DNA of 62,095 nt from a virus: positions 1-62,095 of the IMG/VR virus record IMGVR_UViG_3300005747_000076, one strand, 5' to 3'. The first letter of the stretch is position 1; each line of letters starts with the position of its first letter. This document shows, piece by piece, positions 6,655 to 20,025 of this stretch. The notes under the pieces were generated by a model. That model worked only from the letters and a program-made list of their open reading frames with translations. It ran no database searches and had not been told where the DNA came from. The position numbers and the translations under genes were made by a program.

Positions 6655-6882
6655 TTAATCAACTAACTCAACGTCGTCTTCTTCTTTTAACATCATTTCC
6701 AAATCTTCACGCCCAAGGTAATAGTCGCCGCTGTCCAAAATGTATACGCCTTCAGGAAGTAATTTCTCTAATTCCATGATTTTAGTATAAACTTCTTCCC
6801 AACTTACTTTGCCGTTTTTAACTGCCATGTCAATATTAAATGAAACTTGAATGTTAAGTGTTTTATTAATTGAGTTGCTCAT
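6655..6882 (-). CDS. Hypothetical small acidic protein
   Basis: A 75-residue protein not recognised. It begins MSNSINKTLNIQVSFNID and has an acidic end (MLKEEDDVELVD). AAAGGAAATTAAATT precedes the ATG. The AT tract at about 6908-6930 is a candidate promoter. First gene of a leftward run. Confidence 0.65.
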   Translation of the reverse strand: MSNSINKTLNIQVSFNIDMAVKNGKVSWEEVYTKIMELEKLLPEGVYILDSGDYYLGREDLEMMLKEEDDVELVD

Positions 6883-6971
6883 AATTTAATTTCCTTTCGG
6901 TGTTTTGTTGTATATAGTAATTATATACTAAAACATAAAAATGTATAAATATTTTTAAAAAAAATTGAAAA

Positions 6972-14484: not shown

Positions 14485-14720
14485 GAAAACGGGAATATAG
14501 AATACCTGATAAGTTGCCACAACTAAAAAAAATACCTCAAGTAGGTGATTTAGTGGCAATACAAGATTTAGATGGAACTATATTCCCATGTATCGTTTTA
14601 CAAATAAATAAAAAGCTTACCAAAAAAGGTAAGCCTTCTAAATTAGTTTCCAATATTTCAGTTTTATGTGATAATAGAGTTTGTGCTGTTATGCTACATC
14701 AACTGAAAATGTTATATTAG
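14481..14720 (+). CDS. Hypothetical small SH3-like protein
   Basis: A 79-residue basic protein beginning MRKREYRIPDKLPQLKK, then VGDLVAIQDLDGTIFPCIVL, the GDLV...G...IV pattern shared with two other small proteins in the window. Translation is coupled to the RecU-like gene by an ATGA overlap. The gene ends tail-to-tail with the minus gene at 14717 (4-base overlap). A hairpin (AAGCTTACC/GGTAAGCCTT, about 14626-14653) lies in its coding sequence. Confidence 0.65.
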   Translation: MRKREYRIPDKLPQLKKIPQVGDLVAIQDLDGTIFPCIVLQINKKLTKKGKPSKLVSNISVLCDNRVCAVMLHQLKMLY

Positions 14721-15526
14721 CTAGCGTCTCCAAATGCTCTTATTAATTTCATAGCATCTTCATATTGCTTAAGTCTTTTAATAAGATTTTCATTGTTCTT
14801 TTGTAAATGTTTAAGTTGAGTATCTTTATCTTTTAACTGTTGTTTAGTTATTTCAATAGTAGATTTAGTATCATTCAACTTATTTTCAACCATTGTTAAA
14901 TATAAATCTTTATACTTATTAACATACTCATCACGGTTTTTAAATGATTTACCTAAGAACTCTGAAATTGATTTATTTACTAAGGTCATGATAATACTAT
15001 TTAAATCAGCTTCACCTGTTTTCTGTAGTATATTTTTATGTTTCTGCTCAATATCCATTAGTTCTTTATAATCATCACATGAATTCATATGCCTTTCAAG
15101 GTTAACACTCATAATTTTTTTATTACAACCTGGGCATTTATCTTTTTGTTGGAAGTTATGGCTTCCATTTTTTTTGTTTGTTCTATATCTCTTTTGCCCA
15201 GTTGGCAAATCTTTAATCAAACCTTCATCTTTTAATTCACGTAATTGTTTCTTCTCATCTTGGCAATCTGAGTTATATAAAAACCAATGTTCATGTTTTA
15301 CACAATAATCTGTTGATCCTTTTTGTCTTGCGGCACATCCGCAAATATTCCATGCTCTCCAATCACCTTCAGGCAATGGACCATGTAATGCAGATAATTT
15401 ATCAACCATCATTTTATCTTTTTTATCACGCTCAGCTTTATTTCTTGCTTTATTAATTTTACATTCATCAACAGTTGTAATAGTAAAATTCAATCTTTCT
15501 CTTAATGGTAAATCTTTATATAACAT
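14717..15526 (-). CDS. Zinc-finger/coiled-coil protein
   Basis: A 269-residue protein from the ATG at 15526 (TTGGAG 6-7 bases upstream). Two Cys/His clusters are visible: NICGCAARQKGSTDYCVKHEH (about 60-80) and CPGCNKKI...ERHMNSC (about 133-152), the second resembling a C2HC zinc finger. The C-terminal 100 residues form a long coiled coil (ITKQQLKDKDTQLKHLQKNN). Probably a nucleic-acid-binding or scaffold-like protein; the function is unknown. Confidence 0.65.
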   Translation of the reverse strand: MLYKDLPLRERLNFTITTVDECKINKARNKAERDKKDKMMVDKLSALHGPLPEGDWRAWNICGCAARQKGSTDYCVKHEHWFLYNSDCQDEKKQLRELKDEGLIKDLPTGQKRYRTNKKNGSHNFQQKDKCPGCNKKIMSVNLERHMNSCDDYKELMDIEQKHKNILQKTGEADLNSIIMTLVNKSISEFLGKSFKNRDEYVNKYKDLYLTMVENKLNDTKSTIEITKQQLKDKDTQLKHLQKNNENLIKRLKQYEDAMKLIRAFGDAS

Positions 15527-15834
15527 ATTTGTCTCCAATCTTTAATCTTTAGTATGTTATGTTATTATTATAACTAAGTATTATTGATTTTATAAAAAAT
15601 TTTAAATAAAAAAAAATTAAGAATTATTTGATATATATTAAGTAAGTATAAAAAAGAAAAAAAGTTATAAAAATACTTTCATTTTATTATACTATATATG
15701 TCCCCAATCAAATATCATACATTTTCTAATATTAGATTTTGTATGATTAATAAAAAATACTAAAAAAAAATCTAAAATATAGTTATACTACATAATTAGA
15801 TTAAGAACATCTATAAAAGAAAGCGAAACACAAT
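15527..15834. other. Divergent intergenic region
   Basis: This 308-base, extremely A+T-rich gap lies between a minus gene and the amidase. It holds the nested palindrome at 15714-15747 and AT tracts able to act as promoters in both directions. No reading frame with a ribosome site was found. Confidence 0.5.
15714..15747. promoter_or_regulatory. Nested palindrome, operator-like
   Basis: ATCATACA (15714-15721) and TGTATGAT (15740-15747) are perfect complements around a 12-base perfect palindrome, TCTAATATTAGA (15725-15736), with three T on each side. The symmetry suggests a dimer- or tetramer-binding site about 90 bases before the amidase start. Confidence 0.55.
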
Positions 15835-17575: not shown

Positions 17576-17614
17576 ACAAAAAAACCTGTCCATATATTTT
17601 AATATAAACAGGTT
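17576..17614 (-). terminator. Intrinsic terminator of the late region
   Basis: Stem AACCTGT/ACAGGTT (17583-17589 with 17608-17614), then a T run on the minus strand. It ends the lipoprotein transcript. Confidence 0.8.
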
Positions 17615-17615
17615 T

Positions 17616-17659: not shown

Positions 17660-17944
17660 TTAACAGGCACATCCTTCATCTTCACAGTCAGGATCTTCAC
17701 AAGCTTCTGGCTCCATATCCATTTCTTCTGGCATCATTTCGCCTCCTTCTTCTGGCATTTCCATATCCATTTCCATACCAGCTTCAGGCATTGCCTCTTC
17801 ACCAGCCATTTCTTCACAGCCTTCTTCCTGCTCCATAACACATTCAATGCCTGCAACAGGATCTTCTTCTTTTTCTTTCTTTTTACCTTCACATGCAACA
17901 AACAATGATAAAGATAACAATAAAACGGTTAATAGTCTAAACAT
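17660..17944 (-). CDS. Acidic Met/Glu/Cys-rich lipoprotein
   Basis: A 94-residue protein. A signal peptide (MFRLLTVLLLSLSLFVAC) with a lipobox-type FVAC at residues 15-18 is followed by a very acidic mature part built of Met/Glu/Pro runs (EMDMEMPEEGGEMMPEEMDM) and five Cys near the end (CEDPDCEDEGCAC). It may bind metal or cations in the envelope. Last gene of the late minus-strand run, with its own AT-rich tract upstream and a strong terminator. A small outer-membrane lipoprotein at the end of the late region could serve lysis (o-spanin-like) or exclusion; not shown. Confidence 0.7.
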   Translation of the reverse strand: MFRLLTVLLLSLSLFVACEGKKKEKEEDPVAGIECVMEQEEGCEEMAGEEAMPEAGMEMDMEMPEEGGEMMPEEMDMEPEACEDPDCEDEGCAC

Positions 17945-17979
17945 AACAATTCCCTTTCTAATTTTAGTATTCTGTTATA

Positions 17980-17998
17980 TGACGTATATTATATATGA
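17980..17998 (-). promoter_or_regulatory. Candidate promoter tract
   Basis: CATATATAATATACG (minus), about 40 bases before the lipoprotein ATG, contains TATAAT. It could drive the lipoprotein separately from the cyclase cluster. Confidence 0.35.
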
Positions 17999-18013
17999 TT
18001 TTTACAAAGATTT

Positions 18014-18514
18014 TTAATCATTATTTTCTTTAGGCAACCAATTTTTAATATCTGTATGTAATTCAACCTCGTCAGGAGTTTGGCGCCTTATAATTTCTTT
18101 ATCTTTGAATATAGATAATTCAGTAATCATTGCTAACTGAAGATCACTTATTTGGTCTCTTAATATTTGTAATTGAATTTGACTATCACGCAATCTACTA
18201 ATTAATGCTTGCCTATCAGCATTTGCAACTGCTAATTTTTCCTTTAGTTCTTCTATTTCTGCAGGATCTCTGCCTGCTGCAATTGCTATCATACTGCCTA
18301 TTGACCCTGTTATAGTTCCTAAAACACCTACAACTATATCTCTATTATCAGGATTTATAGGGACAAATGCTAGAAATAAAATCATTAATATAACAAATCC
18401 AAGAAAAACTACTGAAAATACCCATCCTTTACGTGCTTTTTCACTTTGAGTAAATTCTTTTACTTTCTTTTTTACTTCTTCTTTTTCTTTCTGTTGATTA
18501 CTTGGGTCATTCAT
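18014..18514 (-). CDS. Two-helix membrane protein with cytoplasmic-type coiled coil, coupled to the cyclase
   Basis: A 166-residue protein. A charged N-terminal helix (about 8-28) is followed by two predicted membrane helices (about 30-53, VFSVVFLGFVILMILFLAFV, and about 58-81, GVLGTITGSIGSMIAIAAG), then a coiled coil (about 85-135) and an acidic tail. Both ends would lie on the same side. It overlaps the stop of the cyclase by 4 bases (ATGA), so the two are made together. No cyclic-nucleotide-binding domain is seen. It could be a holin-like, channel or effector protein; the pairing with a cyclase is the main clue. Confidence 0.7.
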   Translation of the reverse strand: MNDPSNQQKEKEEVKKKVKEFTQSEKARKGWVFSVVFLGFVILMILFLAFVPINPDNRDIVVGVLGTITGSIGSMIAIAAGRDPAEIEELKEKLAVANADRQALISRLRDSQIQLQILRDQISDLQLAMITELSIFKDKEIIRRQTPDEVELHTDIKNWLPKENND

Positions 18515-19383
18515 TTCTTTAAATCCTCTATAGTAATTTTAATAATATGTTTAACAAAATCAAATATAACATCAATCCATTCAAAAGGTCTAAGAATTAA
18601 ATAATCTATATTCCAACTTTGTTTTGCATAAGGATCACTTAACAGAGGCCATAATATCCAAAGCCAAGCAAACATTACAATAAATCCAATACGCCAGAAA
18701 AAATATTCAACTATTTCAATAATTCTTTTATTTCTTAACCTTACTCTTACTTTTCCTTTTCCACCAATCCTTTTACTTTTCTCGCTATCAGGCGGAGGCT
18801 GTAGTTGTGCTTCAATCAATCCCATTGCATAAACTTGTTCAGGCTCTGAAACACCTTTGAATTTATATAATCCAACAAATACACTTAATGCATTTTTAGG
18901 AATGTGTATATTTCTTTTCTTTCTTTCTTTAAATTTCATCATTGCAGAATGTGATAGTAATATTTGTTCTTCTGCACATAATGACATAATACGCGCAGCA
19001 ATGTTTTTTCCTAATCCATCAATATTAATACGCTTCGCACCGCCTGAAACTAAACTTTCTGCAGTTTTAGTTATAGTCATTTTATCCCAGTGTATACCTA
19101 TTCTGCTCCTGAAAGGAAATTTATGAACTCTTAAATATTTCTTATAGGCAAATGCAAATGCAACAGCGTCATGCACTGTTCCAAAATACATTAAAGTTCC
19201 ATCACTTGCGTCAATCCATTGTCCATTATGTTTAGTAATTAATGACATTACAACTTTATCATGTGTGCTAAACCATTTTGCCGCTGTTCTAGATCCGTGT
19301 TTTTGCACAAACTTCGTGCTCCCAATAATGTCTGTTATGACTATTGCTATCCAGTCATCAACCATTTCTTGTGGCATCCCCAT
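18511..19383 (-). CDS. Class III nucleotidyl cyclase with C-terminal membrane helix
   Basis: A 290-residue protein; AAAGGAAAAATAAT precedes the ATG. The cyclase homology domain covers about 10-190. The two metal Asp are D18 (VITDIIGST) and D61 (DASDGTLMYFG). The Asn/Arg pair of the transition state is N127 and R131 (GKNIAARI), and the substrate-side Asp is D122 (IDGLG). The usual base-selecting Lys is not found; Ile or Asp stands there, so the product nucleotide cannot be predicted. The end shows the familiar GLYKFKGVSEPEQVYAM block, then a basic linker, a membrane helix (about 228-248) and an amphipathic tail. It sits in the late operon between holin-like and coiled-coil membrane proteins. 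Cyclases are rare in phages. Confidence 0.85.
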   Translation of the reverse strand: MGMPQEMVDDWIAIVITDIIGSTKFVQKHGSRTAAKWFSTHDKVVMSLITKHNGQWIDASDGTLMYFGTVHDAVAFAFAYKKYLRVHKFPFRSRIGIHWDKMTITKTAESLVSGGAKRINIDGLGKNIAARIMSLCAEEQILLSHSAMMKFKERKKRNIHIPKNALSVFVGLYKFKGVSEPEQVYAMGLIEAQLQPPPDSEKSKRIGGKGKVRVRLRNKRIIEIVEYFFWRIGFIVMFAWLWILWPLLSDPYAKQSWNIDYLILRPFEWIDVIFDFVKHIIKITIEDLKK

Positions 19384-19395
19384 ATTATTTTTCCT

Positions 19396-19677
19396 TTATG
19401 TAGGTTTAATATGTATCGTGCATTTACAGTGTTTAGCAATATTTAAACACATTGGACAAGGGCAATTATCTGTAGGCCATTTACATTCTGTTGCTAATAT
19501 ATTACATGGACACTTTTGAATTGTGCAAATACAATCAACTTTTCCACATAATGCACATACTGTTGGGTCATCCCAATTAGTATTTTCAGGAGACCAATCA
19601 TATAAAGTTTTACTCGGGTCAAACGAAGGAGGATTAACTTGTTGTGGGGGAATTAAATGTTTATTTTTTCTTTTCAA
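19396..19677 (-). CDS. Cys-rich protein, probable metal binder
   Basis: A 93-residue protein from a TTG start at 19677 with GAGGAG about 8-10 bases before. Residues about 40-90 carry about 12 Cys in closely spaced CxxC, CxC and CPxxC pairs (CALCGKVDCIC; CPCPMCLNIAKHC), a pattern of metal-binding or disulphide-rich proteins; no family was recognised. It is placed 12 bases before the cyclase start and may belong to its pathway. No membrane helix or signal peptide. Confidence 0.6.
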   Translation of the reverse strand: MKRKNKHLIPPQQVNPPSFDPSKTLYDWSPENTNWDDPTVCALCGKVDCICTIQKCPCNILATECKWPTDNCPCPMCLNIAKHCKCTIHIKPT

Positions 19678-20025
19678 GTGAAATCTCCTCAGTTTCTATT
19701 AATTCATTTAAGTCTTCACCCTCACTTACTTTTTTTTTAATTCATCCAGCTCTTTTTTAAGCTTTTGATCTTCTCTATCAAATATCTCCACGGCTGAATG
19801 TAAATATTTATCCAAACTTGATTGCCCAATGACATACCCAATTGTAAGTGCTGAAGATGATACGACCATAGCAAGTAATATTGACATTTCATATAAATCA
19901 ATTGTGCCAATATGTGTTATAAGCCAGCCCATCAAGCCTTTTGTAGTAAGTTCAGCTATTAGATAAGCCAAAAACTTTTTACTTTGCATAGGCTTACTGC
20001 CATCTGCTGTTGGTTTGTTTGTCAT
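19661..20025 (-). other. Possible -1 frameshift product of the holin-like gene
   Basis: The last codons of the 19726-20025 frame contain A-AAA-AAG immediately before TAA, identical to the dnaX slippery heptamer. A -1 slip would add 22 residues (beginning VSEGEDLNELIETEE) and stop at 19661, filling the gap to the next gene. A homopolymer sequencing error in the nine-A run would give the same picture. Confidence 0.35.
19726..20025 (-). CDS. Holin-like two-helix membrane protein
   Basis: A 99-residue protein. Two hydrophobic segments (about 22-42, LAYLIAELTTKGLMGWLITHI, and about 48-68, SILLAMVVSSSALTIGYVIG) are followed by a highly charged C-terminal helix (DREDQKLKKELDELKKK). This is the size and layout of class II-type holins. 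It overlaps the upstream structural gene by 4 bases. No endolysin is adjacent; the amidase is on the other strand at 15835. A -1 frameshift could extend it. Confidence 0.6.
   Translation of the reverse strand: MTNKPTADGSKPMQSKKFLAYLIAELTTKGLMGWLITHIGTIDLYEMSILLAMVVSSSALTIGYVIGQSSLDKYLHSAVEIFDREDQKLKKELDELKKK

Follow-up and report, generated by a model that had tools for sequence, protein, structure and literature searches.

What would a phage do with a nucleotide messenger synthase of its own? Nucleotide second messengers at the interface of phages and their hosts are known mainly as bacterial weapons, which phages destroy or sponge up. The opposite situation appears to be met in IMG/VR virus record IMGVR_UViG_3300005747_000076, a stretch of 62,095 bases that was analysed as a whole and is referred to as the window in the following. 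It carries myovirus-like structural genes (portal, baseplate, major head, head protease and terminase) and encodes a class III nucleotidyl cyclase directly adjoining a small membrane protein, here termed the partner. A first-pass annotation of the window had described five open reading frames (ORFs) in this place, all on the minus strand, among them a two-helix coiled-coil membrane protein whose gene overlaps that of the cyclase by four bases. All five, the overlap included, were found again. The pair itself is made up as follows:

18511-19383, minus strand: class III nucleotidyl cyclase of 290 aa (ORF, profiles, fold model), with a catalytic domain at about residues 7-194, a conserved basic linker at about 195-220, a membrane helix at 221-243 and a C-terminal helix at 262-289
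18014-18514, minus strand: partner of 166 aa, a two-helix membrane protein with coiled coil (ORF, alignment, model)
18511-18514, minus strand: ATGA, the 4-base overlap of the cyclase stop with the partner start (sequence)

The ATGA overlap suggests translational coupling. The pair is real and widespread in uncultivated virus contigs, while the mechanism is partly inferred. Our tentatively preferred reading is that cyclase and partner may form a self-contained, phage-owned cyclic-nucleotide switch at the inner membrane, perhaps employed late in infection for superinfection exclusion.

Linkage of the cyclase and partner genes

Scans of the IMG/VR viral contigs returned 292 cyclase stretches and 311 partner stretches. 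The linkage counts given here refer to the best 80 of each and also take in 78 loci from another scan and a few from smaller scans. In a set of 91 cyclase loci, some of which overlap on one contig and of which L001 is the window itself, the partner is present in 88, and the remaining three (L087, L088 and L091) are cut inside the cyclase by the contig end. L087 and L052 come from opposite ends of a single 375,691-base contig, and the partner is found at the L052 end. Overlapping cyclase pieces (residues 9-275 and 6-144) reside at both ends of this contig, which makes a circular or terminally redundant genome probable for this phage.

Recruitment via a wider partner profile led to 75 new loci, all of which contain a cyclase, 71 of them within 200 bases and four at a distance of 1.5-3.9 kb; ten of the 75, including the four distant ones, are situated on contigs already reached via the cyclase. 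A third set of cyclase loci, many on contigs seen before, has the partner in 74 of 78 cases. Two of the misses (L189 and L191) are on the contigs of L033 and L035, where the partner lies 3.2 and 3.9 kb off, and in the other two (L227 and L248) the contig stops within the cyclase or shortly behind it. The first-pass annotation had from the outset made its case depend in part on recurrence of the pair in related phages, and every fetched cyclase locus that is not cut by a contig end indeed has the partner. The linkage persists despite separation of the two genes by up to 3.9 kb and despite strand inversion; a cyclase-partner fusion ORF was not found. After dereplication at 90% cyclase identity, which reduced 142 loci to 69 (several with short examined flanks), the next most frequent neighbour family is present in only 28. 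Cyclase and partner distances are correlated with an r of 0.33 versus a permutation maximum of 0.17. To judge from the pair, nucleotide signalling of this kind would be owned and maintained by uncultured tailed phages across a broad range, with contigs above 200 kb among them.

Fold and active site of the cyclase

Judged by its predicted fold, the window protein is with confidence a class III cyclase. Structure prediction of the single proteins, a check already proposed in the first-pass annotation, yielded an AlphaFold2 model of the cyclase with a mean predicted local distance difference test (pLDDT) value of 94.5. The model superimposes on Rv1900c (1ybt_B) with a Z of 22.9 and 1.8 Å over 171 aligned residues, and the folds of Rv1900c and Ma1120 are matched with Z 22-23. 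The catalytic domain is common to the phage cyclase, Rv1900c/LipJ, Ma1120 and NCBIfam TIGR04510 (putative peptide modification system cyclase). TIGR04510 is matched at an E of 4e-34 over positions 7-204 of its 814-position model, and the score of 118 bits lies below the 400-bit cut-off for full-length members, as do those of L002 and L003; the phage cyclases end at the catalytic domain and membrane part. The match to Pfam PF00211 stays below the cut-off (E 0.0068). When the PDB was searched by sequence, the single cyclase matched Ma1120 at about 5e-6 and Rv1900c at about 9e-4, the family profile at 7e-14 and 2e-14, respectively. BFVD contains 11 cyclase matches at E <= 0.001 with identities of 8-16%, and the named ones are mostly from giant viruses, joined by two uncultured Caudovirales proteins.

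The metal-binding residues D18 and D61 and the transition-state residues N127 and R131, all pointed out beforehand, are present in the window and in all 52 dereplicated relatives of a first set, where D58, S60 and K126 are likewise invariant. A wider set of 111 distinct near-full-length cyclases has D58, S60, D61, K126 and R131 in every member, D18 in 110 (the remaining ORF is cut by the contig start) and N127 in 109, with a true change to Ala in L096 and L137. Median ratios of nonsynonymous to synonymous polymorphism (pN/pS) over 40 pairs amount to 0.18 for the cyclase and 0.11 for the partner. The cyclase is thus under purifying selection and, as its sequence retains complete catalytic residues, a putative enzyme. 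A chance ORF or a pseudogene is ruled out for the family by the catalytic residues of the 52 relatives together with pN/pS values well below 1. Exceptions to the intact family are L096 and L137 with their Asn to Ala change and L086 with a split ORF. In L086 (227-1023) the cyclase is divided into pieces of 199 and 60 aa and the partner is intact, which may reflect an assembly error or a decayed gene.

The residues that select the base are more peculiar. The base-selecting Lys had been reported as absent, and its site is indeed occupied by the invariant D58 in 52 of 52 relatives. D122, which had been taken for the canonical base-reading Asp, has to be given up in this role: alignment to Rv1900c assigns that place to residue 120, which is N in the window and E in 26, N in 21, S in 3 and A in 2 of the 52 relatives, while at position 122 E is found in 49 of them and D in three. 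The adenine-reading Lys and Asp pair of ATP-specific adenylate cyclases is therefore not found. In the profile alignment D58 coincides with Lys in Ma1120 and with Asn in Rv1900c; compared with these two enzymes, the phage cyclases are distinguished by the invariant D58, by a stretch ahead of the metal Asp that is shorter by one residue and by the invariant K126. Four plasmid-borne bacterial relatives have Lys (Nitrosomonas, Bradyrhizobium japonicum and Sinorhizobium) or Arg (Bradyrhizobium sp. Ash2021) at the D58 site. Because D58 occupies the Lys site and residue 120 is variable, the nucleotide product is not readable from the sequence. The membrane anchor expected behind the catalytic domain corresponds to helix 221-243, and the second helix of the model, at 262-289, may lie in or on the membrane.

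The membrane partner and a possible nucleotide switch

Hydropathy reveals two hydrophobic segments in the partner, at 27-57 and 60-80, and two such segments are present in 50 of 52 members of the family. The model comprises long helices at 5-50, 58-79 and 84-138, the third of which bears the near-invariant motif DRxALIxRLRDxQIQ. Invariant residues are N57 and R58 in the loop and D100, R101, L104, I105, R107, L108, R109, D110 and I113 in the third helix. Conservation is higher in the partner than in the cyclase, with mean pairwise identities of 0.61 and 0.48, respectively. According to the positive-inside rule, its coiled coil would be cytoplasmic. A sequence search of the PDB gave no match for the partner, VIA-align found no usable match to its fold among five chains (best Z 5.6, root mean square deviation 6.2 over 74 residues) and comparison of the model with BFVD gave nothing at E <= 0.001; this lack of a structural match is no evidence of a new fold. 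SLATT proteins have a long helix behind a pair of membrane helices, and SLATT models are the most frequent weak matches of the partner, both in Pfam (SLATT_fungal, 39 of 52 members, best E 5e-4) and in NCBIfam (37 of 52, best E 3e-3), while Pfam shows no SLATT match for four holin-like proteins. The partner shares this layout with the two-transmembrane SLATT effectors, for which a function as nucleotide-responsive pores has been predicted (PMC7159879, in part).

A classical receptor elsewhere in the phage was not found: the sequence profile of cNMP_binding (PF00027) retrieved none of 51 phage records, with 10 of 14 control genomes detected, and PF00027 is also absent from the 25 families listed for the partner. 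As no PF00027 domain occurs in the 51 records, the partner is left as the only constant companion of the cyclase. A sister family (L249-L272; 24 loci with 16 distinct C-terminal strings) has the same membrane hairpin and a different third helix. The cyclase is encoded in none of the 24 whole records of this family, which span 4-37 kb and include many fragments (two of two positive controls were found), and RLRDxQIQ occurs in 0 of 24 members, three of which are cut before this region, versus 49 of 52 in the cyclase-linked family. This contrast points to the coiled-coil helix of the partner as the element that would read the cyclase or its product.

In the switch that we tentatively prefer, the cyclase would act as a homodimer. 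It would make a 3',5'-cyclic mononucleotide although the residues that normally select adenine are missing, an invariant Asp standing in for the Lys and mostly Glu or Asn for the Asp. Either this product or the cyclase protein would act on the partner via the DRxALIxRLRDxQIQ helix, and the partner would then alter membrane permeability, by analogy to two-helix effectors of other nucleotide-signalling defence systems. The weakest step is the biological use: most likely, the pair would be directed late in infection at a rival phage or at a response of the host, as in superinfection exclusion, rather than serve as a routine lysis timer. The system is a compact one of two proteins with invariant residues and may reveal a new mode by which membrane proteins read cyclic nucleotides.

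Several points weigh against this switch. The enzyme activity of the cyclase is a prediction, and L096 (5084-5977) and L137 (4321-5202) have Ala127, yet keep the metal Asp, the Arg and the partner. In this sub-lineage of two loci, catalysis may be weakened or lost, or the cyclase may be regulatory. The model of the partner attains a pLDDT of only 74, a nucleotide-binding domain is not recognisable in this protein and no useful structural match is available. Its SLATT score in the window is 13.9 bits versus a curated cut-off of 26.5, and AbrB, an unrelated family of membrane proteins, produces matches at a similar frequency and with a better best E (32 of 52 and 1e-4 in Pfam, 33 of 52 and 3e-4 in NCBIfam). 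L014, recruited via the partner profile, has a partner-like gene without a cyclase; the gene belongs to the sister family. Furthermore, the trees of cyclase and partner disagree: of 38 cyclase nodes with good support, 23 are contradicted by partner nodes that are likewise well supported, and specific pairs are thus not locked together. Finally, the partner may regulate the cyclase instead of acting downstream of a signal.

This last point is the core of the main rival, a somewhat unlikely but serious one, in which the partner would be an obligate activator or scaffold of the cyclase. Class III cyclases require dimerisation, and the coiled coil of the partner, invariant in its third helix just as the loop is at N57/R58, would dimerise and position the two subunits or transmit a membrane signal. 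The product would act on host targets, such as a CRP-type receptor, and thereby reprogram the host; a host receptor is a target that is left over when the 51 phage records contain no PF00027 receptor of their own. If the product were aimed at the host, however, a membrane partner should not be required throughout all lineages; moreover, the residues that select the base differ from those of ATP-specific cyclases.

Known two-gene systems, distribution and gene neighbourhoods

Pycsar effectors carry a cyclic-nucleotide-binding (CNB) domain. The phage pair resembles Pycsar (PycC with PycTM/PycTIR) in its two-gene logic of class III cyclase plus membrane protein, and the effector domain is the one that the PF00027 profile failed to find in the partner and in the 51 phage records. 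The PycC models of PADLOC match the phage cyclases weakly (best 2.4e-6), the most frequent of the four models reaching 17 of 52 members at E <= 0.001. These matches would also be in line with a very improbable role in counter-defence, in which decoy cyclic nucleotides would tie up Pycsar-type effectors of the host or compete with the signal for these effectors and the partner would only localise the cyclase. Phages are known to attack cyclic-nucleotide immunity (PMC9117128, in excerpt), but classical Pycsar effectors would be switched on, not inhibited, if the cyclase made an agonist, and the universal membrane partner would be left unexplained. Panoptes, as described in the accessible part of PMC12657218, consists of the mCpol synthase OptS and the two-pass membrane effector OptE with a beta-barrel nucleotide-binding domain. 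It is likewise a two-gene operon for a nucleotide messenger synthase and then a two-pass membrane protein; the phage pair differs from OptS/OptE, as portrayed there, in combining a class III cyclase with a predicted all-helical partner. Membership in Pycsar or Panoptes is not claimed, both offering the best comparison in logic, and the comparisons suggest that the pair is not matched to any known system. It is conceivable, if unlikely, that the pair would constitute a virus-borne immune system, a guard akin to Pycsar or Panoptes. Via a non-canonical cyclic mononucleotide, the cyclase would hold the partner on or off, and an attack by a rival phage or the host would trip membrane disruption. 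The trigger could, for example, be a rival phage bringing an anti-Pycsar phosphodiesterase or sponge. If so, the partner would be a new type of cyclic-nucleotide receptor, one that relies on a coiled-coil helix in place of a CNB fold.

A nucleotide cyclase in uncultivated marine phages is also on record for pelagiphages, whose curli (type VIII secretion system) clusters carry an adenylate cyclase gene after the CsgG, CsgF and FecR genes; a two-helix partner is not mentioned in the available part of that account, and the case is set apart by gene context, not by sequence (PMC9599517). A pelagiphage curli-type cyclase is unsupported here, as CsgG was detected in 0 of 51 records, which may be fragments (control 4 of 14 genomes).

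Searches beyond the viral contigs were mostly negative. The cyclases of the window and of L054 and the L054 partner gave no tblastn match in 50,697 phage records. Prokaryote genome contigs contained no cyclase with patterns slightly stricter than those recovering the 292 viral stretches, and no partner, a weaker negative given that the three-sequence patterns find only 12 viral loci even when slightly looser. On plasmids, the best 20 of 71 cyclase-like matches are bacterial and 25-31% identical; with identities this low and no cyclase in the genome contigs, recent capture of a host gene is unsupported. One partner, compared with plasmids by tblastn at E <= 10, gave two chance-like matches, neither of them named SLATT. 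In open-licence literature, judged by title and start of abstract, no prior description of the pair was found among the matches listed.

The pair occupies at least six gene-order types. Grouped by shared neighbours, the 69 dereplicated loci comprise 22 of a terminase-portal type, 15 of a helicase/Nudix large-phage type, six of a tail/amidase type that includes the window and three more types of six, six and four loci, with ten loci in none. In the cyclase tree, loci of different types are intermingled, and cyclase and partner seem to move between phage lineages and to recombine, yet remain together. Terminase phrog_2 was found in 19 of 51 phage records, many of the records being fragments or containing other terminase families.

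In the window, tail and baseplate genes lie upstream of the cyclase cluster, in agreement with the late-region position assigned in the first-pass annotation, and the pair is placed between the tail and endolysin operons beside a holin-like protein. Such a location would suit a lysis timer whose holin, gated by the cyclase product, would be either the partner or the holin-like protein next to it, and a holin-like relative is found within the examined flanks of 26 of 69 loci, on either strand. Holins, however, normally work without a second messenger, the amidase family is present in only 13 of 69 dereplicated neighbourhoods and the 22 loci of the terminase-portal type also argue against this function. 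The timer, one of the earlier suggestions, is thus not favoured and is quite unlikely. The remaining features around the pair are:

19726-20025, minus strand: holin-like protein with two hydrophobic helices (ORF)
19396-19677, minus strand: small Cys-rich protein with CxxC and CxC clusters and a TTG start (ORF)
17660-17944, minus strand: predicted lipoprotein, acidic and with Cys, encoded downstream of the partner (ORF)
17582-17615, no strand assigned: terminator-like hairpin plus T run, between the cyclase cluster and the convergent endolysin operon (sequence)

Terminator-like sites are not significantly enriched in the region (three found versus 1.9 +/- 1.6 in shuffles). In 12 of 69 loci a member of the Cys-rich family is found upstream of the cyclase, directly adjacent in ten and with one ORF in between in two; a similar, unclustered Cys-rich ORF precedes the pair in L070 (5700-5993) and L003. 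Pfam gave no convincing match for the Cys-rich protein. A gene resembling that of the window lipoprotein, as compared by eye, is present in the sibling phage L002 at 6666-6956. A small Cys-containing, lipoprotein-like family occurs in 13 of 69 loci, sometimes near a gene for a DUF481 protein, which we take to be outer-membrane-protein-like. DUF481 proteins are encoded near the pair in ten of 69 loci (L027, 9085-9840; L054, 10476-11210; and eight clustered relatives), two members having been tested with Pfam. It is possible that DUF481 and lipoprotein-like genes form an envelope-remodelling cluster, and the DUF481 neighbours suggest Gram-negative hosts in some lineages. The best isolate matches of the window portal are large phages of Bacillales, the best-ranked ones, with less than 60% identity, stemming from phages of Lysinibacillus, Bacillus and Exiguobacterium. 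For the L122 portal, the best-ranked matches are phages of Arthrobacter and Gordonia, again at less than 60% identity. Elsewhere in the window, at 14717-15538 on the minus strand, a protein of 273 aa is encoded that weakly matches a C2H2-like zinc finger (E 0.023) and probably forms a coiled coil at its C-terminus, and a relative of it is found at the same place in L002/L047 and L020.

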